A stretch of 64,000 bases of DNA from Caulobacteraceae bacterium (lineage in GTDB: Bacteria > Pseudomonadota > Alphaproteobacteria > Caulobacterales > Caulobacteraceae): the NCBI GenBank assembly GCA_003164925.1, contig PLRV01000078.1:742-64741 (forward strand). The letters run 5' to 3'. The notes beneath the pieces were generated by a model, which saw nothing but the letters and a program-made list of their open reading frames with translations, was not told the origin of the DNA and searched no databases. Below, piece by piece: positions 333 through 31,171 of the stretch. The translations under genes were made by a program, and so were the position numbers. How positions within the stretch are numbered: position 1 is the stretch's first letter; each line of letters opens with the position of its first letter.

Positions 333-406
333 TGGAGCGGGTAGCGGGAATCGAACCCGCATCCTCAGCTTGGAAGGCTGCTGCACTACCATTGTGCTAT
401 ACCCGC
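333..406 (-). tRNA. tRNA-Gly (anticodon TCC)
   Basis: On the minus strand the 74 nt fold as a cloverleaf. The 7-bp acceptor stem pairs GCGGGTA with TACCCGC, the anticodon loop is CTTCCAA giving TCC, and the T-arm is GCGGGTTCGATTCCCGC. The 3' CCA is encoded in the DNA. It sits between tRNA-Tyr and tuf, in the same direction. Confidence 0.96.
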
Positions 407-480
407 CGCCGCCGAAAGCCGGCCTGAGCGGGGTCGCCGCGATCTCCTCGTCTCAGAGAAGCCTTGCCTCGACCGGCGCG

Positions 481-565
481 TGGTGGGGGAAGTAGGACTC
501 GAACCTACGAAGGCTATGCCAGCGGATTTACAGTCCGCCCCCTTTGCCGCTCGGGACATTCCCCC
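481..565 (-). tRNA. tRNA-Tyr (anticodon GTA)
   Basis: On the minus strand this is an 85-nt class II tRNA with a long variable arm. The anticodon loop is CTGTAAA, giving GTA, and the T-arm is GTAGGTTCGAGTCCTAC. The acceptor stem pairs GGGGGAA with TTCCCCC, followed by A and an encoded CCA. It is the first gene of the tRNA-Tyr, tRNA-Gly, tuf unit. Confidence 0.96.
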
Positions 566-20507: not shown

Positions 20508-22400
20508 CTAGAAGTGCATGATGATGTCGCCCGACCAGATCAACTCGTGGGACGTGTTCGGAGCAATGCCGGCGTTGGCGTTGCCGTTGTAAGCGTCCTT
20601 GGAGGCCCAGTAGTAGACCACTTCGGGACGTATTTCGATCTGCGGGCCCACCCAGTGCTGCCAGCCGATACCGACGTCATAGTAGACGGCGTTGGTGCCG
20701 GTGCGCTGGCCTTCCTCGTCGTCATAGATTTCCGTCCGCAGCGAAATATTGTCCAGCGGATCGGGCTGGAAGCTGGTGTACTGGACGGCGCCGATGGACT
20801 GGGCCGTACAGGTGAGCACCGTGGAGCTCTTGCATTCCGCCGCGGCAGGCGCGTTGAACGGAAGGTACTGCGGCGAGAACGGCGTGCCGCCGGCGGCGAT
20901 GATGCCAGGCACCACGGGGTTGGTGAGGTTAGGCACCTTCAGCTGGTACTCGTCGTACATTTCGAACGAGGTGTGCCAGTTGTCCGCCCACTTGTGGTAG
21001 TAGGTAAACCCTTGCCACTGCAGGTTATTATAACCCCACACGCCGTTGTTGTGCGCATCCTCGCACGCCATGAAGGCGTTCTTGGCGTCGCTGGCTTCCC
21101 AACGCAGGCAGGACGTGATCGAGGGCTGGGCGCCGGGGTCCTTGAGGAAGGTCTTGCCGCCGTACAGGGGGTTGCCCGGATCTAGGTTGGGTTCCTTGAC
21201 GCCCAGGTTCCAAACCGTCGCCTCGGTGCCGACCGATATGCCGACCTGGAAGGTCCAGTTCTTGTTGATCAGCAGCGTAGTGGACAGGCCTTCGTTGGTG
21301 TAGTTGTCGAAGGTGTAGGTGATGGAGTGGGTGTACATATAGTTGTTGGGCGCAAGTTGGGCCTCAATGTCAGGCACCGATATATAGCGGCCTAGACGGA
21401 AGAACAGACCATCCAAAACCTTAGGAACGTAGAGTTCCAGGTACATCATGGGGAAGTCGTAACCCATGGGATGGTTGTCCTTGAGGAGCTGGTAGCTGGC
21501 CAGTCCATAGGACGTCGTGTAGCGATAGTTGGTGCCGTAGATCGCCGAGGCGCGGAAACCCCAGTCCACGTGATCGGTCTGAACCGTGTCGGGTGTCCGC
21601 TCGACGTACATCACCGCCTGGTCCAGGGTGATGGAGTTTGGGTTGTACAGATAGGCGGCCGGCGCGTTGCCGCCGCTCTTGACCTTGCTGGTGCTGAGGT
21701 TGCCGCCGTAATCGACCCAACCGTAGGCCTGGATGCCGGTGGCCGCCATGGCCTTGCCGATGAAGGTCGGCTCCAGCGCGACATCCAGCGGGCTGTCGTA
21801 GGAGGCGGTGCGGTTGGTGGCGATACCCGTGGCGCCCCCGTAGGGCCATTCGGTGAAGGGATAGGGCGGCGAGGTCACCGGCGCCGGCGGAAAGTCCTTG
21901 CGGCGCGAATCGGGGGCGCCCGGTGTCGGCGGCGGGCCGGCCTGATCCCATTCCAGCTTATAGTAGTTGACCAGGCGGGTGAAAAAGTTGGTGCCCAGCT
22001 TGGCGTCCCAGTTGGGATCCGGCGTCACATAGGGTGACGGCGAGGCCGCAGGGGCCGGGGTGTTGTCGGCCAGTTGCAGCATCGGCGCCTTGGCGATGGC
22101 GCTGACCGTATCATTGGCCGGAGCGCCGGCGTCCGTCGCCGTGGCCGCGCCCATCGCCGCCGGCACAGGCGCGGTCGGCGCGCTCAGGTCGGCAAGAAGG
22201 ATCACGCCCGAGGAAGACGACGCCGGGGCGGCGACCTGCTCGGCAAATGCATTGGACGTGGCCAGAACGCCGAAGCCCACCACGCTGGCCAGCAAAAACG
22301 TCTTGAACACTCTGGACCGCTCTTGTCCACGGCCATCGCCGCGAGCAACTCCGTTTGGATAAACGGATGCAAACGCCTGCGTATTATTTATTTCTGACAT
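20508..22400 (-). CDS. Outer-membrane beta-barrel porin (BBP2/OmpL-like), paralogue 1
   Basis: A 630-residue outer-membrane barrel. The signal peptide (FKTFLLASVVGFGVLATSNA, ending AFA) is followed by an Ala/Pro-rich periplasmic linker to about residue 120. Barrel landmarks shared with the two neighbouring paralogues include AYGWVDYGGNLS, YVERTPDTVQTDHVDWGFRA, GRYISVPDIEAQLAPNNYMY and FLKDPGAQPSI, and the protein ends in Phe. The family is the putative beta-barrel porin-2 group; its solute is not known. SD-like AGGGGAAT precedes the ATG by about 7 nt. Upstream at 22.6-22.75 kb lie three copies of the 17-bp inverted repeat. It is the first of three tandem, same-strand copies with separate promoters. 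Confidence 0.88.
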   Translation of the reverse strand: MSEINNTQAFASVYPNGVARGDGRGQERSRVFKTFLLASVVGFGVLATSNAFAEQVAAPASSSSGVILLADLSAPTAPVPAAMGAATATDAGAPANDTVSAIAKAPMLQLADNTPAPAASPSPYVTPDPNWDAKLGTNFFTRLVNYYKLEWDQAGPPPTPGAPDSRRKDFPPAPVTSPPYPFTEWPYGGATGIATNRTASYDSPLDVALEPTFIGKAMAATGIQAYGWVDYGGNLSTSKVKSGGNAPAAYLYNPNSITLDQAVMYVERTPDTVQTDHVDWGFRASAIYGTNYRYTTSYGLASYQLLKDNHPMGYDFPMMYLELYVPKVLDGLFFRLGRYISVPDIEAQLAPNNYMYTHSITYTFDNYTNEGLSTTLLINKNWTFQVGISVGTEATVWNLGVKEPNLDPGNPLYGGKTFLKDPGAQPSITSCLRWEASDAKNAFMACEDAHNNGVWGYNNLQWQGFTYYHKWADNWHTSFEMYDEYQLKVPNLTNPVVPGIIAAGGTPFSPQYLPFNAPAAAECKSSTVLTCTAQSIGAVQYTSFQPDPLDNISLRTEIYDDEEGQRTGTNAVYYDVGIGWQHWVGPQIEIRPEVVYYWASKDAYNGNANAGIAPNTSHELIWSGDIIMHF

Positions 22401-22608
22401 CCTCTATATTCCCCTTTGCTTTTCGCTTTTTTAGAAGCGACCCGCCCAAACTTATTACGACTGCCGTGAGGTTTAATCACAACACCGGCCCTGGGGTCGC
22501 AGATTGCTCCTGTATGTTCCAGGCGACCCCGCCAAAATGACCGATCATTTCCATATTCGCTTCTTTTGGCGTCATTTGCGGCATTATCTGCCGTTTTTTA
22601 TGTCTACA

Positions 22609-22625
22609 AACCCATATTGGTATTA
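22609..22625. promoter_or_regulatory. 17-bp inverted-repeat operator, site 3a (porin 1)
   Basis: AAACCCA-TAT-TGGTATT; the left arm is perfect and the right arm partly degenerate. It is centred 217 bp before the porin 1 start. Confidence 0.55.
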
Positions 22626-22708
22626 TTTTCCCCATATGCGGCGCCGAGATAGCGGCCTTGCCTAGGGGGAATCTATCAGTATTTTTGCGGTATCTTGGTC
22701 GCCGCAGT

Positions 22709-22725
22709 TCACCATATTGGTGTTT
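22709..22725. promoter_or_regulatory. 17-bp inverted-repeat operator, site 3b (porin 1)
   Basis: TTCACCA-TAT-TGGTGTT with a perfect CACCA/TGGTG core. Its centre is exactly 20 bp from the centre of site 3c, two helical turns. Confidence 0.6.
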
Positions 22726-22728
22726 AAA

Positions 22729-22745
22729 AACCCATTTTGGGTTTG
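22729..22745. promoter_or_regulatory. 17-bp inverted-repeat operator, site 3c (porin 1), perfect copy
   Basis: AAACCCA-TTT-TGGGTTT: both 7-bp arms pair perfectly around a 3-nt spacer. This is the cleanest copy in the window, about 337 bp upstream of porin 1. Confidence 0.75.
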
Positions 22746-22934
22746 TGTGGCGGCAATACTTGGGCTGGATGCAGCGCGTACGCTCCGGGCGTGGAGCCGC
22801 GATTTTGGCGCTAAAGCGCCATATTGCCTAAGTTATTAGCTTACCATCCTGGGGCTCAACGGCGGCGTGGGCGGGCCGCCCAATCGCGGCCTGGACACTG
22901 CAAACCGGGCCCTGCCATCCCAATTGACCGCCAT

Positions 22935-22964
22935 CCTCGGAAAATGCGGAGCATTTGTCCGAGG
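22935..22964. repeat. Extragenic palindrome with CCTCGG/CCGAGG ends, copy 1
   Basis: CCTCGG and CCGAGG pair, with inner AAATGC/GCATTT and a GGA loop, giving a near-perfect hairpin of about 13 bp. Similar palindromes are frequent between genes in many alphaproteobacteria (general knowledge). Confidence 0.6.
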
Positions 22965-23041
22965 CCCCAGCAGAAATGCGCTTGACGCTACGATGGACGC
23001 GCTGCGCGAAGGGCTTGTCATCAAAGGTCGAGCGGCTGGGT

Positions 23042-23072
23042 CCTCGGGCTCGACTTACAGTCGCCCCGAGGA
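23042..23072. repeat. Extragenic palindrome with CCTCGG/CCGAGG ends, copy 2
   Basis: CCTCGGG pairs with CCCGAGG across a 17-nt centre that holds a further CGAC/GTCG pair. It is flanked by GATGACGA, often seen beside this kind of repeat. It may act as the 3' end of the porin 2 transcript, but there is no T-run. Confidence 0.5.
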
Positions 23073-23126
23073 TGACGATCTCGTTGAACGATATAGAGTT
23101 TTTGACGGGCCGATTGAGCCCACACC

Positions 23127-24872
23127 CTAGAAGTGCCAGATGATGTCGCCAGCCCACACCGTTTGCTGCCTCTTGTCCGGGGAGATTCCCAGATAGGGAT
23201 TGCCGTCGAAAGCGGGCTTGGTCGACCAGTAGTATGAGACCTCCGGGCGCAGCTCCACCTGGGCGCCCAGCCAGTGCTGCCAGCCTATGCCGACGTCGTA
23301 ATAGATCGTCGCCGTGCCTGTGCGCTGCCCTTCCTCGTCGTCGTAGTACTCGGCGCGAAACGACAGGTTGTCCAAAGGACCCGGCTGATAGTTCAGATAG
23401 GTCAGAGCCGACTGGGACACGGCCGAGCAATCCAGCGCATTGGGATTTTTGCACTGGGCCGCGTTCGGCGCGTTGAATGGAATATATTGCGGAGAAAACG
23501 GCGTTCCACCGTTGGTGATATAACCCGAGACGGCGGGATTCAGGCTGTTTGGAACATTGTTCTGGTGCTCGTTGTAGATTTCAACGGCGATATGCCAATG
23601 ATCGTTCCATTTATGATAATAGGTAACGCCATACCACTGGAGGTTATTGTACCCGAAAGTACCTTTGTTGATCCCGTTGCCGCAGATGTACAGATTGTCC
23701 TTGGCTGAGTCGCTCTCATAGCGGGCGCAGGCCGTGACGGTCGGCTGGGCGCCGGGATCCTTCAGGAAGGTCTTGTTGGGGTAGAGCGGATTGGGATCGA
23801 GGTTGGGCAGGGTCGCGTTGACGTTCCAGATCGCCGCCTCCGTCCCGTCGCTGACCCCGAGCTGGAGGATAACGTTCTTGGTCGCCTGAAGCGTCGCCTG
23901 CACGCCTTCGTTGGTATAGTTGTCCAGCGTATAGGTAATGGAATGGGTATACATGTAGTTGTTCGGCGCGAGCTGCGCCTCGATATCCGGCAAGGAAATG
24001 TATCGGCCCACCCGCACGATCAGGCCCTGGGCGACATTGGGAATGAAAGCTTCCGCATAGACCATGGGAAAATCGTAACCCATGCCCGCGTTGTTCTTCA
24101 GTAGCTGGTAGCTGGCGATGCCATAGGCGGTCGTGTAGCGATAGTTGGTGCCGTAGATGGCCGAAAGCCTGAAACCCCAATCGATATGATCGGTTTGCAC
24201 GGTGTCAGGAGTCCGCTCGACATAGAGCACCGCCTGGTCAAGCGAGATCGCGTTGGGCTGGAAGTCGTAGGCAGCCGGTGAATTCCCGTATTTGTTCTTG
24301 CTCGAACTGAGGTTGCCGCCGTAGTCGACCCAGCCGTAGGCTTGCAGACCGGTCGCGCTCATGAATTTGCCGACGCCGGTGTTGGCGATCGCCACCATCA
24401 GGGGGCTGTCCACCGAAGCCGTGCGATTGGTGCCCAGATTGGTCGTCCCGCCATAAGGCCATTCGGTGAACGGCATGGGCGGGGAGTTTTCGGGCTGGGG
24501 CGGCACATTGGCCCGGCGCGAGGTCGGCGCATTGGGGTCGGCCGGCGGGCCGACTTGGCCCCACTCCAGTTTGTAGTAGTTGGCCAGACGCTCCAGCACG
24601 CCGGAGCCTAGCTTGTCGCTCCAGGTGACTGAAGCCGCCGCGGTCGGCGCCGGGGCGGCCGGCGTATTATCGGCCAGTTGCACGGCCGGGGCATTAGCGA
24701 CGGCCGCGCCCCCATCCTGGGGCTGTCCCGCATCGAGCGATCCGGCGAAAGCTTGCGCGCCCGACAGGCCGGCGACACCCACCACACTCGCCAACAGACA
24801 GGCCTTGAATCGGCGAGCCCCTCGCTCCCCGAATCGCTGAGCCCAAGCCGAGCAAGTTTCACCGTTGTTCAT
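23127..24872 (-). CDS. Outer-membrane beta-barrel porin (BBP2/OmpL-like), paralogue 2
   Basis: A 581-residue paralogue of porins 1 and 3. The start ATG at 24872 gives MNNGETCSAWAQRFGERGAR, then a signal peptide (FKACLLASVVGVAGLSGAQA, ending AFA). The open frame runs 28 codons further upstream with Arg-rich sequence unlike a leader. Barrel landmarks are GLQAYGWVDYGGNLSSSK, YVERTPDTVQTDHIDWGFRL, GRYISLPDIEAQLAPNNYMY and the C-terminal WAGDIIWHF. Its extracellular-loop-like segments differ most from its neighbours. One operator copy lies about 208 bp upstream. Solute not known. Confidence 0.88.
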   Translation of the reverse strand: MNNGETCSAWAQRFGERGARRFKACLLASVVGVAGLSGAQAFAGSLDAGQPQDGGAAVANAPAVQLADNTPAAPAPTAAASVTWSDKLGSGVLERLANYYKLEWGQVGPPADPNAPTSRRANVPPQPENSPPMPFTEWPYGGTTNLGTNRTASVDSPLMVAIANTGVGKFMSATGLQAYGWVDYGGNLSSSKNKYGNSPAAYDFQPNAISLDQAVLYVERTPDTVQTDHIDWGFRLSAIYGTNYRYTTAYGIASYQLLKNNAGMGYDFPMVYAEAFIPNVAQGLIVRVGRYISLPDIEAQLAPNNYMYTHSITYTLDNYTNEGVQATLQATKNVILQLGVSDGTEAAIWNVNATLPNLDPNPLYPNKTFLKDPGAQPTVTACARYESDSAKDNLYICGNGINKGTFGYNNLQWYGVTYYHKWNDHWHIAVEIYNEHQNNVPNSLNPAVSGYITNGGTPFSPQYIPFNAPNAAQCKNPNALDCSAVSQSALTYLNYQPGPLDNLSFRAEYYDDEEGQRTGTATIYYDVGIGWQHWLGAQVELRPEVSYYWSTKPAFDGNPYLGISPDKRQQTVWAGDIIWHF

Positions 24873-25071
24873 TCCCAATATCCCCTCTGTTTCGCGAAAC
24901 GCGACGAGCCGCCGTGCGCGCGATCCGAGTCTGAGCGCGCTTCGACGGGGGGCCACGGGGTGCAGGGGGATGCGGTTCAGTCACTCATGGCGACGAACCG
25001 GACGGTCAGTTTTGAGATTTTAGCTGCATACGGGGGCAGCTTCAGACAGCTTAGCCAATTTATGTGGCGAT

Positions 25072-25088
25072 TTGCCCATTTTGGGCGT
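25072..25088. promoter_or_regulatory. 17-bp inverted-repeat operator, site 4 (porin 2)
   Basis: TTGCCCA-TTT-TGGGCGT with a perfect GCCCA/TGGGC core, centred 208 bp before the porin 2 start. That is close to the 217 bp of site 3a from porin 1. Confidence 0.65.
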
Positions 25089-25201
25089 GTTTTCTCGTTT
25101 TCGCATTTTTGATGCGATTTTTGGGGATCGGCAAATCGAGGACCGAACCGTTCGACGAGGCGAGAATAAAGGGGTGAATCAAGCCTCGCCGAACGGCCGG
25201 C

Positions 25202-25236
25202 AAAAGAACATCGCCGGGGCGCAAGCCCCAGCGATG
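25202..25236 (-). terminator. Rho-independent terminator after porin 3
   Basis: On the minus strand CATCGC(T)GGGGC pairs with GCCCC(G)GCGATG around TTGC, followed by TTCTTTT. It sits just past the porin 3 stop and insulates it from porin 2. Confidence 0.85.
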
Positions 25237-25253
25237 CTTAAGCTAACTCCAGA

Positions 25254-27071
25254 CTAGAAGTGCCAGATGAGGTCGCCGGAGAAGACGCGCTCGGTCTTCG
25301 CGGTGCCCAGGTTGAACGAGGGCCTGTCGCTCCAGTAGGAGGTGAACTCGGGCCGCATTTCGATTTGCGGCGAGAGCCAGTGCTGCAGGCCGATACCCAG
25401 CTCGTAGTAGCTGGTGGCGGTGCCTGTGCGCTGACCTTCCGGATCGTCATAGTACTCGGTGCGCAAGGAGAAGTTGTTCATCGGGTTGGGCGAGAAGTTC
25501 CAGTAGGCCACGGTGCCGTAGGAGTCCGTCCGGCAGCGAAGCACTGTCACGCTCTTGCACTGCGCCTCGTAAGGCGAGTTGAAGGGGATGTACTGCGGCG
25601 AGAAGGGCGTGCCGCCATTGAGGTAGATGTTCTGAGCCGTTGGGTTCAGCTCGTTGACCACCCCGTCTTGGTGCTCGTTGTAGAACTCCCAGGAGACGTG
25701 GAAGTACTGGTTGAACTTGTGATAGGCGGTCAGGCCGTACCATTGCAGGTTGTTGTAGCCCCAGTTGCCCTTATTGACGGCGTCGGCGCAGACGTTGACG
25801 TCGTTGTTGCCGTCCAGGCTCTGCCAGCGACCGCACACGGTGAGTGACGGCTGTTCGCCCGGATCCTTGAGGAAGGACTTGCCCGGATAAAGCGGGTCCG
25901 AACCCGCTCCGTTAGCCAGCACATACTGGTTGGGCAGCTTGACGTTATAGTCCCACACGCCCTCTTCCGTACCCATGGCGAGGCCCACTTGCAGCATGAA
26001 CTGCTTGGTGACAGCCAGGGTCGTCTGAATGCCTTCGTTGGTATAGTTGTCCAACGTATAGGTTATGGAGTGGGTGTACATATAGTTGTTCGGGGCCAGC
26101 TGGGCCTCGATGTCCGGCAGGGAGATGTAACGACCCACGCGGATCATCAGACCTTCCATGATCTTGGGAACCCAGAGTTCGCCGTAAACCATGGGGAAGT
26201 CGTAGCCGACGAAGTTGTTATGCTTCAGCAGCTGATAGCTGGCGACGCCGTAGGACGTCGTGTAGCGATAGTTTTCACCGTAGATCGCCGAGGCGCGGAA
26301 GCCCCAATCGACGTGATCGGTCTGCACGGTGTCGGGCGTGCGCTCGACATACAGCACCGCCTGATCCAGCTGAACGTTGTTGGGGTTGTAGTCGTAGGCC
26401 GCCGGCGCGTTGCCGCCTTTCAGGTGGCTGGAGCTGATGTTGCCGCCGTAATCGATCCAGCCGTAGGCCTGGATGCCCAGGGAGGCCATCGCCTGGCCGA
26501 CACCGGTGTGCTCAACGGCCACCATCAGAGGGCTGTCGATCGAAGCGGTGTGGTTGTCGCCGATCAGGGTGGTGCCGCCGTAGGGCCAGTCGGTGAAGGG
26601 CATGGGCGGGGTGGTTTGCGGCACGACCGGCCAGCCGGCGCGGGTGGCCGGCGGGGCGTTGGGATCGGTCGGCGCGGACGATTGGCCCCATTCGGCGAAG
26701 TAGTAGTTCACGAAGCGCGAGAGCGGATTCGCGCCGATGGCCTTGTCCACCGCCGAAACGGTGTAGGGACTGGCGACGGACGAGGCCGGCGCGGCGGACG
26801 GCGTGGCCTGGGCGATCTGCACCGCGGGCGCGTTGGCGATGGCCGCCACGGCGCCCTGAACCGGAGCCCCGTTATCGGTGGCGACCGTGGAGGCCAGCGC
26901 CGGGACGCTGGCGTCCGCCAGGAGCAGAACGTTCGAGGCGCCGTTTGAGGCCAGCGCCTGTTGCGCGAAGGCGCTGGAGCCGGACAGAACAGCGATGCCA
27001 ACCACGCTCCCCAACAGGAGAGCCTTGTAGCCCCCCAGGCGAGCAGCCGACATAGATGCACAGGATTTCAT
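25254..27071 (-). CDS. Outer-membrane beta-barrel porin (BBP2/OmpL-like), paralogue 3
   Basis: A 605-residue member of the same tandem family. The signal peptide is YKALLLGSVVGIAVLSGSSA ending AFA, followed by an Ala-rich linker to about residue 110. Shared barrel blocks are AYGWIDYGGNIS, YVERTPDTVQTDHVDWGFRA, GRYISLPDIEAQLAPNNYMY and NEGIQTTLAVTKQFMLQVGL, and the protein ends DLIWHF. A Shine-Dalgarno AGGGGAA lies 5-6 nt before the ATG. Two copies of the operator, degenerate in one arm, lie 86 and 106 bp upstream, and a half-site lies 188 bp upstream. Passive uptake or export is inferred from the family; substrate not known. Confidence 0.88.
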   Translation of the reverse strand: MKSCASMSAARLGGYKALLLGSVVGIAVLSGSSAFAQQALASNGASNVLLLADASVPALASTVATDNGAPVQGAVAAIANAPAVQIAQATPSAAPASSVASPYTVSAVDKAIGANPLSRFVNYYFAEWGQSSAPTDPNAPPATRAGWPVVPQTTPPMPFTDWPYGGTTLIGDNHTASIDSPLMVAVEHTGVGQAMASLGIQAYGWIDYGGNISSSHLKGGNAPAAYDYNPNNVQLDQAVLYVERTPDTVQTDHVDWGFRASAIYGENYRYTTSYGVASYQLLKHNNFVGYDFPMVYGELWVPKIMEGLMIRVGRYISLPDIEAQLAPNNYMYTHSITYTLDNYTNEGIQTTLAVTKQFMLQVGLAMGTEEGVWDYNVKLPNQYVLANGAGSDPLYPGKSFLKDPGEQPSLTVCGRWQSLDGNNDVNVCADAVNKGNWGYNNLQWYGLTAYHKFNQYFHVSWEFYNEHQDGVVNELNPTAQNIYLNGGTPFSPQYIPFNSPYEAQCKSVTVLRCRTDSYGTVAYWNFSPNPMNNFSLRTEYYDDPEGQRTGTATSYYELGIGLQHWLSPQIEMRPEFTSYWSDRPSFNLGTAKTERVFSGDLIWHF

Positions 27072-27148
27072 TTGGTTCCCCTAGTTGAACTCACGCCCTG
27101 ATGAGCGATTTGCTATCGACGTTGGTCGTACCCGACCCCCTGCCGAAT

Positions 27149-27185
27149 AGGCCCATATCAGGCATTCTCTGCCCATAATGTGCCT
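27149..27185. promoter_or_regulatory. Operator pair 5a/5b (porin 3), degenerate
   Basis: GCCCA-TAT-CAGGC is centred at 27157 and GCCCA-TAA-TGTGC at 27177, exactly 20 bp apart as for sites 3b and 3c. The left arms are perfect; the right arms match 3 of 5 and 4 of 5 bases. A further left half-site AAGCCCATAA is centred at 27259. Confidence 0.45.
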
Positions 27186-27364
27186 GAAAACGTCAATTAG
27201 GTGTGGCTAATTCCAAATGCCGCCGATATTTTGCACTTTGTGATGCCTATAAGCCCATAATTGTAGCAAAATGGCGTCGTAAAGCGCTTTTGTGGGGTGT
27301 GATCGCGGCGGCCTGGTAGCCGCGCCCTACAATGGGGTCAGGCGAGATCAGCGGTGCGACGGTT

Positions 27365-28426
27365 ATGATTCAGGATGCCTTATCCCGATATGTGAAGCAG
27401 CAGGGAAACGGCTCGGCCGGCGGCGCCACCGTCTTTTTCTCCGAAGCGCTGGAGGCTTTTCGCCATTCGGGGCGGGAACATTGTGTCGAGATCGGCGGGA
27501 CCACGGTGGTGTTCTGGTCCGACAACGGCGACGCGGACGATCTGCTGATGGCGGCCATGAGCGCGCTCAGCGACCACTGGCAGGACCGCAGCACGCCCGA
27601 AGCCCGGCGGCTTTGCGAACGGGTGTCCAGCGCCGGTCGGTGGCCCCCGGCAAATATGTACGCCGGTCTTGAAGGGCGCTTTTATGCCGTGGGCCTGGCG
27701 AAGACCTCCGGGCAGACCACGGTCAAGTTCTTCATCGTCGACAAACTCAGCCGTCTGGCCGGAAATATCCGTGATTTCTGGGAAGACCTGCGCATCGAAC
27801 CCTCTGACGGCGGCCCGGCGCCATCGGTCATTGGCCTCCTGCGGGAGACCGTTCCCGGGGGGCGCCTGGATTTGGCGCCTGCCAACCTGATCAGCGAAAT
27901 TCTCTATGCGCTCCTGTCCGGCGGCGGATTTCCGCCTAGCCTGCTCAGCGCGGTGCTGGGGCGTTTGCGGTCGGACGGCGATCTGACGGAGAATCGCGTG
28001 GCGGCGCTCAAGGGCGTCATAGCACGGCGTGAACGATTGGGCGGCGCCTGGCTCAGATCGCCGGTCATGCTCAAGCCGAACTTTCCCGACCAAGCCTATC
28101 AACTGGGCCGGCTGGCCTGCAGGATCGACGCCGTCGATCCGAAGTTGAAAACGGACGCCTTTCAAACCGGCTCGGTCTTCCGATCTTGGTTGGCCAACGG
28201 CCCCCGCCTCAGCCTTAGAACGTCGTATCTCATGCTATTGAGCCTGCCTGTCCTGCAAAAAACCGAGAAGGACATCCCCCAAGGGGTGCGCATTCGAGAA
28301 GCCATCAAGACCCTCTGGCTGGAATGCTTCAAGCGGCGGCCCTCCCTGAGCAACCCCGAGGACCAGGCGCGCTTCGCGCTCGGATACTATCACCAGAGCG
28401 CCGCGCGCGATCCCGCCGGCGCCTAA
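27365..28426 (+). CDS. Rearranged Cas8c/Csd1: start plus C-terminal half
   Basis: Cas8c/Csd1 is the large subunit of the type I-C CRISPR Cascade complex, usually about 570-600 residues. This 353-residue protein opens with MIQDALSRYVKQQ, which resembles the normal Csd1 start. It then jumps to the middle of the family at HCVEIGGTTVVFWSD. Next come RFYAVGLAKTSGQTTVKFFI, the IRDFWEDLRIEP block, SVIGLLRETVPGG, PPSLLSAVLGRLRSDGD and AYQLGRLACRID. It ends with DQARFALGYYHQ, the family's C-terminal signature. The missing N-terminal lobe lies 140 bp downstream on the opposite strand. No other cas gene or repeat array is present in the window. The frame also opens at 27332. Assignment rests on motif order recalled from the family and is moderately strong. 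Confidence 0.75.
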   Translation: MIQDALSRYVKQQGNGSAGGATVFFSEALEAFRHSGREHCVEIGGTTVVFWSDNGDADDLLMAAMSALSDHWQDRSTPEARRLCERVSSAGRWPPANMYAGLEGRFYAVGLAKTSGQTTVKFFIVDKLSRLAGNIRDFWEDLRIEPSDGGPAPSVIGLLRETVPGGRLDLAPANLISEILYALLSGGGFPPSLLSAVLGRLRSDGDLTENRVAALKGVIARRERLGGAWLRSPVMLKPNFPDQAYQLGRLACRIDAVDPKLKTDAFQTGSVFRSWLANGPRLSLRTSYLMLLSLPVLQKTEKDIPQGVRIREAIKTLWLECFKRRPSLSNPEDQARFALGYYHQSAARDPAGA

Positions 28427-28473
28427 AGCACGATGGGTTTAGGCGGAATCGCCTAAACGCTGAATCGTGCTCT
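28427..28473. repeat. Bimodular repeat copy 1, hairpin 1
   Basis: AGCACGAT pairs with ATCGTGCT, and inside it GTTTAGGCG pairs with CGCCTAAAC around GAAT. It begins one base after the stop codon of the Csd1 C-terminal gene. The outer arms and the following CTAGATTC are shared with the copy at 60516. Confidence 0.75.
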
Positions 28474-28488
28474 AGATTCAAATATGGT

Positions 28489-28525
28489 GAGCCGGATTCA
28501 GACGTCGAGAGACGTCATCCGGCTC
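28489..28525. repeat. Bimodular repeat copy 1, hairpin 2
   Basis: GAGCCGGAT (then bulge TCA) GACGTC, loop GAGA, GACGTC ATCCGGCTC: a 15-bp stem with one 3-nt bulge. The matching module in the second copy is at 60580-60625. Confidence 0.7.
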
Positions 28526-28563
28526 TAAAGCGCCGCACGTACTCTCGGTTCTAACTTTATGAT

Positions 28564-29157
28564 TTATGGCAAGATTTGGCGATCAGCTCGATATAAGCTG
28601 ATCGCATCTTGCTGTGAGCCTTGGTCCAGCACGCGCGACCATGCCTGACGGGCGGCCTGACGTTCGTGCAGGAACGCGTCGTCGTATTGGAAACGAAAGA
28701 CCAGGTTCAGGTCGAGGCACCCGACGAACTCGGGAAACTCCTGAGACTGCACGGGCGACCAAGTCTCAAGGAACTTGAGGAAAGCCTCCACCCCGATGTC
28801 GTCGATTCCGGCAAGGGCGGTGCGGTGGAAGGCTTTGAACCTTTCGAACGCCAATTCGTCCAGCCGGCAGGTTCCCACGCCCTTGCGTCGACGAATGCCC
28901 AAGGCCGGACCGGTCTTGCCCCAAAGGAAATTCAGCGGGGTCGGATGGCCCAAGCCCTCGAGTTGGGGGACGGCCATCAGCCGCTCGGAGCGGCGGGTGA
29001 AGCCCGTTTGCAGGCTTTCCACGCCGACCAGTTGGCCGCGCGAACCGATCACCACGGCAAGATGGATCTTTTCTCGGCCATAGCCCTCGTTCGCCGCGGG
29101 CCGAACGGGGAGCGCCGGACTCGGCGCAAAGGCCTCTGATCGCTGGGAAACGATCAT
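28564..29157 (-). CDS. Rearranged Cas8c/Csd1: displaced N-terminal lobe
   Basis: A 197-residue protein matching the N-terminal lobe of Csd1, on the strand opposite the C-terminal half. Family landmarks appear in order: GYGREKIHLAVVIGSRGQLV, a VPQ element, LNFLWGKTGPALGI (compare the usual NFLWDKTAYVLGI), FERFKAFH, FLKFLETW, LDLNLVFRF and AFLHERQAARQAWSRVL. The first 20 or so residues do not match the normal Csd1 start, which instead heads the plus-strand gene. The last 20 codons lie in a large hairpin and look non-homologous. It is divergent from small secreted protein B and shares its operator region. Whether it is a functional subunit or a relic is open. Confidence 0.72.
   Translation of the reverse strand: MIVSQRSEAFAPSPALPVRPAANEGYGREKIHLAVVIGSRGQLVGVESLQTGFTRRSERLMAVPQLEGLGHPTPLNFLWGKTGPALGIRRRKGVGTCRLDELAFERFKAFHRTALAGIDDIGVEAFLKFLETWSPVQSQEFPEFVGCLDLNLVFRFQYDDAFLHERQAARQAWSRVLDQGSQQDAISLYRADRQILP
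28569..28612. repeat. Strong bulged hairpin at the 3' end of the Csd1 N-lobe gene
   Basis: GCAAGAT (bulge TTG) GCGATCAGCT, loop CGATATA, AGCTGATCGC ATCTTGC: 17 paired bases with one 3-nt bulge. It covers the stop-codon end of the N-lobe gene and could stop transcription from that side. Confidence 0.7.
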
Positions 29158-29220
29158 GCCCAGCCCCTCAGCGACATATGCAGGCCGTCGTCCTTCACTG
29201 TTTTGGTGGCGCCCAACAGA

Positions 29221-29237
29221 TTACCCATAGTGACATT
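29221..29237. promoter_or_regulatory. Operator half-site 6a
   Basis: TTACCCA-TAG with a degenerate right arm, centred 82 bp from site 6b. The same 82-bp distance separates site 5b from its half-site. Confidence 0.3.
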
Positions 29238-29302
29238 AGGATTGGGATATTTTTGGACTATGGCCCGCTGCGGCCAACAGTAAACGACAAATTGGATTTT
29301 AC

Positions 29303-29319
29303 TACACCAATTTGGGTTT
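29303..29319. promoter_or_regulatory. 17-bp inverted-repeat operator, site 6b (small secreted protein B)
   Basis: TACACCA-ATT-TGGGTTT, centred 86 bp before the GTG start of the small secreted protein. It also lies upstream of the divergent Csd1 N-lobe gene. Confidence 0.6.
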
Positions 29320-29396
29320 TCAATTCCATGAAGTGGTGCGATTAGGCACGGGGTGATGATCTGGCGATCACTTCGGACAACCAAGGGAGTTTGGAC

Positions 29397-29672
29397 GTGC
29401 AACTTACGGAGACGCTTGCTCGCGGGAGACGCGAATCACCTCCGTGGGGCCGTCGCATCGCGGCGATGACGCTTCTGGTTGCCGGCTTCGGCGGCGGCGG
29501 GGTGCTAGCCGCCCAGCCCGACGCCCGTTTGCCCAGCCCCTGGATATCCTGCAGCGATGTTGAGCACGTCGCCTATCGCGCGGTTCCCCCCGCGCTCAAT
29601 CCGCACAACGCGTTCACCCATCCGATCAAGGTGCGCTTGAAGCCAGGCGAAACCTGCGCGGATCTCAAGTAG
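29397..29672 (+). CDS. Small secreted Cys-containing protein, copy B
   Basis: A 91-residue paralogue of copy A. A basic N-terminus with twin arginines (GRR) leads into a hydrophobic stretch (IAAMTLLVAGFGGGGVLA, then AQ), probably a signal peptide. The conserved part reads PSPWISCSDVEHVAYRAVPP, then ALNPHNAFTHPIKVRLKPGE, ending TCADLK. GTG 29397 is chosen because AAGGGAG lies 7 nt before it; TTG 29391 is too close to that site. The operator 86 bp upstream and the paralogue in the kdp gap tie it to the porin group. Function unknown; no metal or enzyme motif is seen. Confidence 0.75.
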   Translation: MQLTETLARGRRESPPWGRRIAAMTLLVAGFGGGGVLAAQPDARLPSPWISCSDVEHVAYRAVPPALNPHNAFTHPIKVRLKPGETCADLK

Positions 29673-29707
29673 GGTTTTGTAGCGCCAGTAGGGAGAACCT
29701 CCGGGCT

Positions 29708-31171
29708 CTACCCCCCCTCACGGTTGGGGTCGCGCCACGCCCGTTCAAACGGCAGTCGCCAAGCATGCGGCGCCACCAATTGATGGATCGATTTCGGCCC
29801 CCAGGCGCCGGGCGGATACAGGCGCACCGGCGGAGGGTTTTCCAGGAGCGGGATCGACACCTCCCACAACCGCTCTATGCCCTCGGCGGTGGTGAACAGG
29901 GTGTGGTCGCCGCGCATGGCGTCGAGGATCAGTCGCTCGTAAGCCTCCAGCACGTCTCCCGCCAGGCCGGTGTCGTGCATGGCGAATTGCAGGCTGAGCT
30001 TGTCGAGCCGCATGCCCGGCCCAGGCCGCTTGCCATAGAAGGACAGCGACATCTTCGACGCGTCGGCCAGATCGAACGTCAGATGGTCGGGGCCCTGGGC
30101 GCCGATGCCCGAGCCCACCGGGAACATGCTCTTGGGCGGCTCTCTGAAGGCGATCGAGATGATCCTCTGGCCCTCGGCCATCTTCTTGCCGGTGCGCAGG
30201 AAGAACGGCACCCCCGCCCAGCGCCAATTATCGATCAGGCATTTGAGAGCGATGAAGGTCTCGGTGTCGGATTCCGGGTCGACCCCCTCCTCCTGGCGAT
30301 AGCCGTTGTATTGGCCGCGCACCACGTCCTTGGGATCGACGGGCAGCATGGAGCGGAACACCTTGTTCTTCTCCTCGCTGATCGGCTTGGGTTCCAGGGC
30401 CGTGGGCGGCTCCATGGCCATGAAGGCCAGGATCTGGAACAGGTGGGTCACCACCATGTCGCGGTAGGCGCCGGTCTGCTCGTAAAAGCCCGCGCGCGCG
30501 CCCAGCCCCAGGGTCTCGGGCACGTCGATCTGCACGTGGTCGATGAAGGTGCGGTTCCAGATCGGCTCGAACAGGCCGTTGGCGAAGCGGAAGGCCAGGA
30601 TGTTCTGGGCCGGCTCCTTGCCCAGGAAGTGGTCGATACGGAAGATCTGCTCCTCGGCGAACACCTCGTGCAGCTTGGCGTTGAGAACCACCGCGCTTTC
30701 CAGGTCGGTGCCGAACGGCTTCTCCATGACGATGCGCGAGCGCTCGACCAGCTGAGCTTCGCCCAGCAGGCGCACGGCCGGCAGAGCCGCGGCAGGCGGC
30801 ACGCTCAGATAATGCAGGCGTCTGACCTCGCCGCCCAGGGCCTGTTCGGCCTTGAGCACGGCGGCGTTCAACGCCTGCGGCCCGGCGGCCAGGGATACAT
30901 AGTCCAATAGCTGGGCGAAGGCGGACCAGTCCGCCGCCTTGACCTTGCGCGGGAAGAACTCCTCGATGGCCGCCTTGGCCAGGGCGCGAAAGGCGTCAGC
31001 GTCGATCTCATCCAGCGAGACCCCGACGATGCGGCAGTCGGGGATGAAGCCCGCGCTGCACAGATGGAACAGGCCGGGCAGGAGCTTGCGCCGCGCCAGG
31101 TCGCCGCTCGCCCCCACCAGCACCACCACCTGGGGATGTCTGGGTCCTACGCCTGGAGGTATCTTGGCCAA
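29708..31171 (-). CDS. zwf: Glucose-6-phosphate 1-dehydrogenase
   Basis: Oxidises glucose-6-phosphate with NADP+ to 6-phosphogluconolactone, the entry to the pentose-phosphate and Entner-Doudoroff routes. The nucleotide-binding motif GASGDLARRKL lies at about residues 20-30, the conserved MEKPFG near 149, and the substrate site RIDHFLGKE at 178-186. The 487 residues match the family. No pgl, edd or other pathway gene is adjacent. It is the first gene on the minus strand after the DUF1501 gene, with a hairpin between the two. Confidence 0.96.
   Translation of the reverse strand: MAKIPPGVGPRHPQVVVLVGASGDLARRKLLPGLFHLCSAGFIPDCRIVGVSLDEIDADAFRALAKAAIEEFFPRKVKAADWSAFAQLLDYVSLAAGPQALNAAVLKAEQALGGEVRRLHYLSVPPAAALPAVRLLGEAQLVERSRIVMEKPFGTDLESAVVLNAKLHEVFAEEQIFRIDHFLGKEPAQNILAFRFANGLFEPIWNRTFIDHVQIDVPETLGLGARAGFYEQTGAYRDMVVTHLFQILAFMAMEPPTALEPKPISEEKNKVFRSMLPVDPKDVVRGQYNGYRQEEGVDPESDTETFIALKCLIDNWRWAGVPFFLRTGKKMAEGQRIISIAFREPPKSMFPVGSGIGAQGPDHLTFDLADASKMSLSFYGKRPGPGMRLDKLSLQFAMHDTGLAGDVLEAYERLILDAMRGDHTLFTTAEGIERLWEVSIPLLENPPPVRLYPPGAWGPKSIHQLVAPHAWRLPFERAWRDPNREGG

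Follow-up and report, generated by a model that had tools for sequence, protein, structure and literature searches.

The window, that is, the whole analysed stretch of 64,000 nucleotides from a Caulobacteraceae genome (contig PLRV01000078.1), carries a Cas8c/Csd1 gene in two pieces. The plus-strand ORF holds the core and the C-terminal region, which in type I-C systems also makes Cas11c, and the minus-strand ORF holds the N-terminal lobe (Table 1). In the Cas8c/Csd1 family, N lobe and core form a single continuous chain; here they are encoded by two ORFs on opposite strands, which are convergent and have 137 bp between their stop codons. The sequence-only reading of this DNA had described a cas8c gene in two with one half inverted, the missing lobe lying about 140 bp past the plus-strand stop on the other strand, and both statements agree with the profile matches and geometry found here. 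Elsewhere in the window, two tRNA genes are located near its start (336-565, minus strand), and three porin-like genes, similar as judged by eye, follow one another on the minus strand (20508-27071), the third of which matches PF07642 (BBP2). The gene at 29708-31171, which we take to be glucose-6-phosphate dehydrogenase-like, has two paralogues in its own genome, and the relatives present in two of the three genus mates are only 42-44% identical to it.

Table 1. Features of the split cas8c locus, in window coordinates
Feature	Position	Strand	Evidence
C-terminal part of Cas8c/Csd1, 364 aa	27332..28426	+	PF09709 243-557; PDB Cas8 chains by sequence
N-terminal lobe of Cas8c/Csd1, 197 aa	28564..29157	-	PF09709 15-177; predicted model; four PDB chains
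Segment proposed to be inverted in place (inference)	27332..28563		Order and strands of the halves; end repeats not significant
Dispersed palindromic element, 49 bp, over the stop codon of the plus ORF	28425..28473		29 copies in own genome
Second palindrome between the halves	28489..28525		Single copy in the window

Both ORFs exceed the 27-bit Pfam cut-off of Cas_Csd1 (PF09709). Residues 37-358 of the plus ORF and 21-183 of the minus ORF match the parts of this 559-position profile listed in Table 1, with 141.1 bits (E 6.4e-41) and 68.6 bits (E 5.8e-19), respectively. TIGR01863 also matches both ORFs. The scores (122 and 48.1 bits) fall short of the equivalog cut-off, 218.65 bits, which half a protein alone could hardly reach. 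Thus, the profile check suggested with the sequence-only reading is positive for both ORFs by Pfam and stays under the cut-off by TIGR01863. PADLOC labels both ORFs Cas8c. The N terminus of the minus ORF begins with MI, common to four aligned relatives, but is then followed by ~20 residues that do not resemble the family.

Predicted structures point in the same direction. At E <= 0.001, the N-lobe model (mean pLDDT 75.3, pTM 0.73) has four matching PDB chains, each a type I-C Cas8, in agreement with the Cas8c-like fold that had been anticipated. As for the C-terminal half, the model is poor (pLDDT 47.7, pTM 0.49), so the ten Foldseek matches that it gives at E <= 0.001, each to an entry of type I-C Cascade, are taken as supporting evidence only. 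In a comparison with PDB chains by sequence, residues 250-356 of the plus ORF, which lie within a longer significant Cas8 match, align to the Cas11 chain 8g9s_H with an E value of 0.044. Since the alignments behind both models contain Csd1 relatives, their Cas8 matches are not independent proof.

Apart from the break itself, neither frame contains an internal stop or a frameshift, and 561 codons are open. Third-position GC is 0.77 for the plus ORF and 0.73 for the minus ORF, with second-position values of 0.50 and 0.45, which is coding-like and bears out the long open frames and GC-rich codons reported earlier for both pieces. For 11 larger neighbouring ORFs third-position GC ranges from 0.76 to 0.90, and for the two small ORFs at 29391-29672 and 29154-29402 it equals 0.76 and 0.54, respectively. 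This metric decides little between a relic and a maintained gene, because it moves slowly in neutral simulation.

The position of the break was determined from an alignment of the halves with 25 other Csd1 proteins, from which the broken L014 was excluded. In this alignment, at most two columns separate the last residue of the minus ORF from the beginning of the plus frame, and the break falls inside a strongly conserved linker, between CLVTGExxPIARLHP and xIKGVxGAQSSGAxLVSFN. According to the family profile, the halves cover positions 55-221 and 256-607 of 624. Opposite the 34 positions between them stand the last 11 residues of the minus ORF and the 13 residues that follow the first ATG in the plus ORF, all of which match weakly at best. 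Only about 10-35 residues are therefore unaccounted for between the halves, and not the roughly 100 estimated from the sequence-only reading. That reading had also taken MIQDALSRYVKQQ for a Csd1-like start, and comparison with one-piece relatives identifies it as the internal DAFTSYGKEQG segment.

The cut lies near a natural hinge, where the flexible N-terminal lobe ends and the core begins. According to a passage in PMC7684278, the N terminus of Cas8c, which is flexible, could not be modelled in the I-C cryo-EM structure. In the chains 8dex_I, 8dfa_I, and 8dfo_I, 415-417 residues of a 612-residue sequence are visible, as against 535 in the dsDNA-bound 8dej_I and 555 in 8dfs_I. The N-lobe model matches 8dej and 8dfs, and none of the first three chains at E <= 0.001.

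Starting from a minus-strand gene, a single in-place inversion of ~1.2 kb that flips the C-terminal half would suffice to produce the observed order, with the C-terminal half on the plus strand followed by the N-terminal half on the minus strand. The N-terminal lobe had originally been proposed to be both moved and inverted. The inversion is retained here as an inference, and the C-terminal half is the more economical candidate for the moved part, since one flip suffices for it and moving the N lobe would take two steps, a transposition and an inversion. Between the segment ends, the longest inverted match is 7 nt, a length reached by 213 of 500 shuffles. An invertible switch with flanking inverted repeats was rejected on this chance-level match, and the pairs in the surrounding region that are longer, though imperfect, do not enclose the segment.

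The 49-bp palindrome occurs in 29 genome copies with at most three mismatches (15 forward and 14 reverse) and in none of the three genus mates; it is a young dispersed repeat. The window holds no second copy, which leaves an inversion between two such palindromes unsupported. Regarding control sites, the operator-like AAAGCGCTTT noted upstream in the earlier reading is indeed present at 27281-27290. Its two matches with at most one mismatch, however, compare with 1.3 expected and are reached by 36 of 100 shuffles, which indicates no excess. Promoter-like and terminator-like sites are likewise not above chance in comparison with shuffled sequence. The suggested tie of the N lobe to the control of the porin group consequently draws on position, all three kinds of site occurring at shuffled frequency.

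The own genome (3,435,177 bases in 100 contigs, 99.42% complete) was searched for partners of the split gene. Profile searches give zero matches for the Cas7 (PF05107), Cas1, and Cas5 (PF09704) families. For the Cas3 core, three weak matches are reported, the best with 33.4 bits against a cut-off of 102.45; since the same search matches in all 14 control genomes (above the cut-off in 6), they are probably ordinary helicases. The type I-C repeat pattern has no genome match with at most two mismatches, and no CRISPR array is found in the window's contig by a script that detects one in L038. The remark that no CRISPR was in sight can thus be extended, for Cas5, Cas7, Cas1, and the type I-C repeat, from the window to the genome.

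Other cas remnants were sought at 26900-30500 with 128 open frames from three csd1 loci as queries, and none was found: five matches fall below E 1e-3, all of them csd1. An 82-aa ORF upstream of the N half overlaps its start by ATGA, reminiscent of a Geminicoccaceae plasmid in which cas5c and cas8c overlap by 4 bp. Considered as a Cas5c remnant, it was rejected, with ordinary scores against two Cas5c proteins that 313 and 97 of 500 shuffles reach.

The PF09709 search covered overlapping sets of 391 family, 398 order, and 385 class genomes and gave matches in 4 (own genome included), 12, and 13 genomes, respectively, leaving 25 other csd1-bearing genomes in the three sets together. Opposite-strand csd1 halves are present in none of these 25, so that the convergent pair, which was to be looked for in related genomes, was not recovered there. 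More than one PF09709 match is found in three of them: in G610 the matches are on the same strand, with one internal TGA followed by a fragment, and in G740 and G818 they are on separate contigs, where the relative strand cannot be judged. The three other genomes of the genus, one of them only 79% complete, show no csd1. No close relative was found among genome contigs or viral contigs, in scans that may omit records very near the window's genome. None of the titles and abstract openings in the literature searched describes a split or inverted cas8c, which is no proof of absence in print.

The plasmid matches are 23.5-36.1% identical, and 9 of 10 for the plus half and 9 of 13 for the minus half are annotated as cas8c, the rest being unannotated. 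A phage search with the plus half only gave two records (23.0% and 25.1% identity). On contigs from a viral collection, one-piece Csd1 genes are located at 2251-4101 in L043, 2041-3903 in L044 (L044/L045), and 2989-4947 in L046, and the Csd1 of a further viral contig, L047, is cut at the record end. A phage or plasmid origin of the split gene was rejected on these identities and on the one-piece state of the viral genes L043, L044/L045, and L046. The terminal branches equal 2.12 substitutions per site for the N half and 2.31 for the C half, which represents a large divergence; the trees, having weak support and differing placements, were used for branch lengths only.

How far this divergence reflects lost constraint was judged by several metrics. 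In neutral simulations, which comprised substitutions only and no indels, the share of runs left with zero stops was 28-55% at 5% residue change, 8-22% at 10%, 5-7% at 15%, and <1% at 30%. Among changed hydrophobic positions, 16 of 23 in the N half and 46 of 63 in the C half are still hydrophobic, similar to seven one-piece control rows (0.62-0.83). Neutral drift, in contrast, keeps hydrophobicity at a fraction of 0.41-0.45, a figure obtained at 15-30% residue change, below the real divergence, so that the match is not exact. Since hydrophobicity is kept above the neutral level, most of the divergence arose under fold-keeping selection, either before or after the break.

Invariant residues were counted in 66 columns fixed by 20 core relatives, which are not fully independent (L026, L027, and L028 are near-identical). 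The split gene keeps 34 of them. The diverged one-piece relatives L005, L032, and L034 keep 42, 43, and 44, a difference that is not significant (p 0.11-0.22), and L029, L030, L031, and L043v keep 51-58 (p < 0.004). With these p values against L005, L032, and L034, the total invariant count was rejected as proof of lost constraint. A first count (19 of 39 for the split versus 36 of 45 for L005 and 40 of 56 for L032) was flawed, as L005 and the L032/L034 pair could help define the columns judging one another. As for residues lost in a single protein, 13 of the 66 are lost only in the split gene, compared with 4 in L005, 3 in L032, 0 in L029, 1 in L030, 2 in L031, and 0 in L043v. Among these private losses are C and two G in the linker, two R in NAARLSVR (one replaced by K), and A and P in ASATP.

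The losses are concentrated at the break. The conserved linker CLVTGE..LHP.IKGV.GAQSSGA..VSFN is not kept: of residues with at least 90% conservation, the split gene retains 7 of 29 near the break versus 56 of 107 elsewhere (p 0.011), a count in which the alignment of fragment ends is unreliable, three gapped columns were scored as lost, and the range called near was chosen once. The controls retain 18-28 of these 29, with L005 showing 19 of 29 near the break and 57 of 107 elsewhere and L032 showing 18 of 29 and 57 of 107, and in all seven control rows conservation near the break is at least as high as elsewhere. A gene eroded at the break and otherwise conserved like a diverged one-piece Cas8c is consistent with a break of sufficient age for its new ends to have drifted while the remainder was kept. 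The erosion may, however, reflect misaligned fragment ends or read-through into rearranged sequence, and all the divergence may be older than the break.

Taken together, the two explanations offered by the sequence-only reading, a relic of an inversion and a reused two-piece protein, are still the right pair, and the evidence leans modestly to the second. We favour, with about an even chance and without regarding the matter as settled, a solitary Cas8c-derived protein of which both halves are still maintained. A type I-C cas8c would have been left alone, the remaining CRISPR-Cas locus having been lost or never having arrived with it, and one in-place inversion of the C-terminal part would have cut it near the hinge between N lobe and core. 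Both halves would have stayed genes for folded proteins, presumably under continued selection. They would no longer serve a type I-C Cascade, since Cas5c, Cas7c, a convincing Cas3, and a crRNA source were not found in the searches described above. The likeliest present state would be a two-piece, guide-free Cas8c-derived protein, whose dsDNA-facing N lobe and core would be expressed from separate convergent transcripts and might reassociate on DNA. That such a separate N lobe and core indeed reassemble on dsDNA outside any CRISPR system is a more specific proposition that we regard as rather unlikely; if so, the protein may, for example, be a regulator that binds DNA or a decoy countering mobile elements with type I-C systems.

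The main competitor, to which we assign a considerable probability short of even, is a young relic, that is, a divergent intact Cas8c-like gene inverted recently, with neither half working and the frames open for lack of time. Orphan cas relics are expected a priori, and the prior for a relic is high. Such a relic agrees with the other cas genes being undetected in the genome, with an arrangement seen in one genome only, with the frequency of stop-free runs at 5% residue change, and with conservation away from the break that equals that of diverged one-piece relatives, as for a recently working gene. It accords less well with a linker eroded at the break and kept in all controls, with the 13 private losses, and with 561 codons free of stops and frameshifts, given that neutral drift at 10% seldom leaves none. 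The maintained halves are favoured for the same reasons, as well as by hydrophobicity kept as in the controls and above neutral, and by new ends that drifted while the rest held. They are weakened by a total of kept invariants statistically matching L005, L032, and L034, by promoter-like and terminator-like sites at chance level, and by the lack of a partner gene or of a conserved arrangement in other genomes.

Two further explanations are much less probable. Separate genes need not share a fate, and one half only, e.g., the plus ORF in the role of a Cas11-like protein or of a core protein, might still be working, with the other as a decaying remainder; the shortness of the N half and its unfamiliar first ~20 residues would suit this. 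The fold-keeping pattern is the same in both halves, however, third-position GC is coding-like in both, and their branch lengths are similar, which makes this improbable. Least probable of all is an assembly error in the draft genome, for which the number of contigs and a 29-copy palindrome between the halves could be cited. A wrong join at the palindrome, however, links two 3' ends and leaves the cut between N and C parts unexplained, so that two false joins would be needed; moreover, the locus is well inside a 94-kb contig, and erosion of the linker is not something that an assembler would produce.

In its known role, Cas8c serves as one subunit of an RNA-guided complex. If the split gene is a maintained orphan, the large subunit can live without crRNA, Cas5, and Cas7, and nature provides a two-chain version for studies of dsDNA sensing. 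If it is a relic, the locus clearly captures how a cas gene dies through an inversion.

In comparison with Cas8c/Csd1 of type I-C Cascade (PF09709, TIGR01863; 8dej, 8g9u), the halves jointly span most of the profile with the lobes in the right order, and the predicted N-lobe fold of the minus ORF matches. The differences are that two opposite-strand genes are present here, that the linker motif and several invariants are lost, and that no Cas5c, Cas7c, Cas3, or array was found in the searches of genome and contig. The csd1 of N. gonorrhoeae (L060, entered as a plasmid although the record is 2.17 Mb long; its csd1 is broken and unannotated) is likewise in pieces and opened by later events. Its two pieces, however, lie on the same strand and are strongly family-like, scoring 361 and 131 bits versus 159 and 95 for the halves in the window, a gap that also favours maintained halves here.

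Within the same family, genome G304 carries a divergent cas5c-cas8c-cas7c cassette (L037, 6294-14856) that adjoins two serine recombinases. Among the ten ORFs scanned there is no Cas3 or Cas1, and no array is present in the 19.5 kb, and this cassette is possibly a mobile minimal type I-C set. Its Csd1 is similarly divergent (268 bits over 558 positions) but is a one-piece protein with Cas5c and Cas7c as partners. Finally, a passage in PMC7684278 describes Cas11c as a small subunit translated from inside cas8c, which provides a known precedent for one portion of Cas8c occurring as a chain of its own. Cas11c, however, is an in-frame internal product of the C-terminal region, whereas the split described here lies on the N-lobe side and involves two genes.
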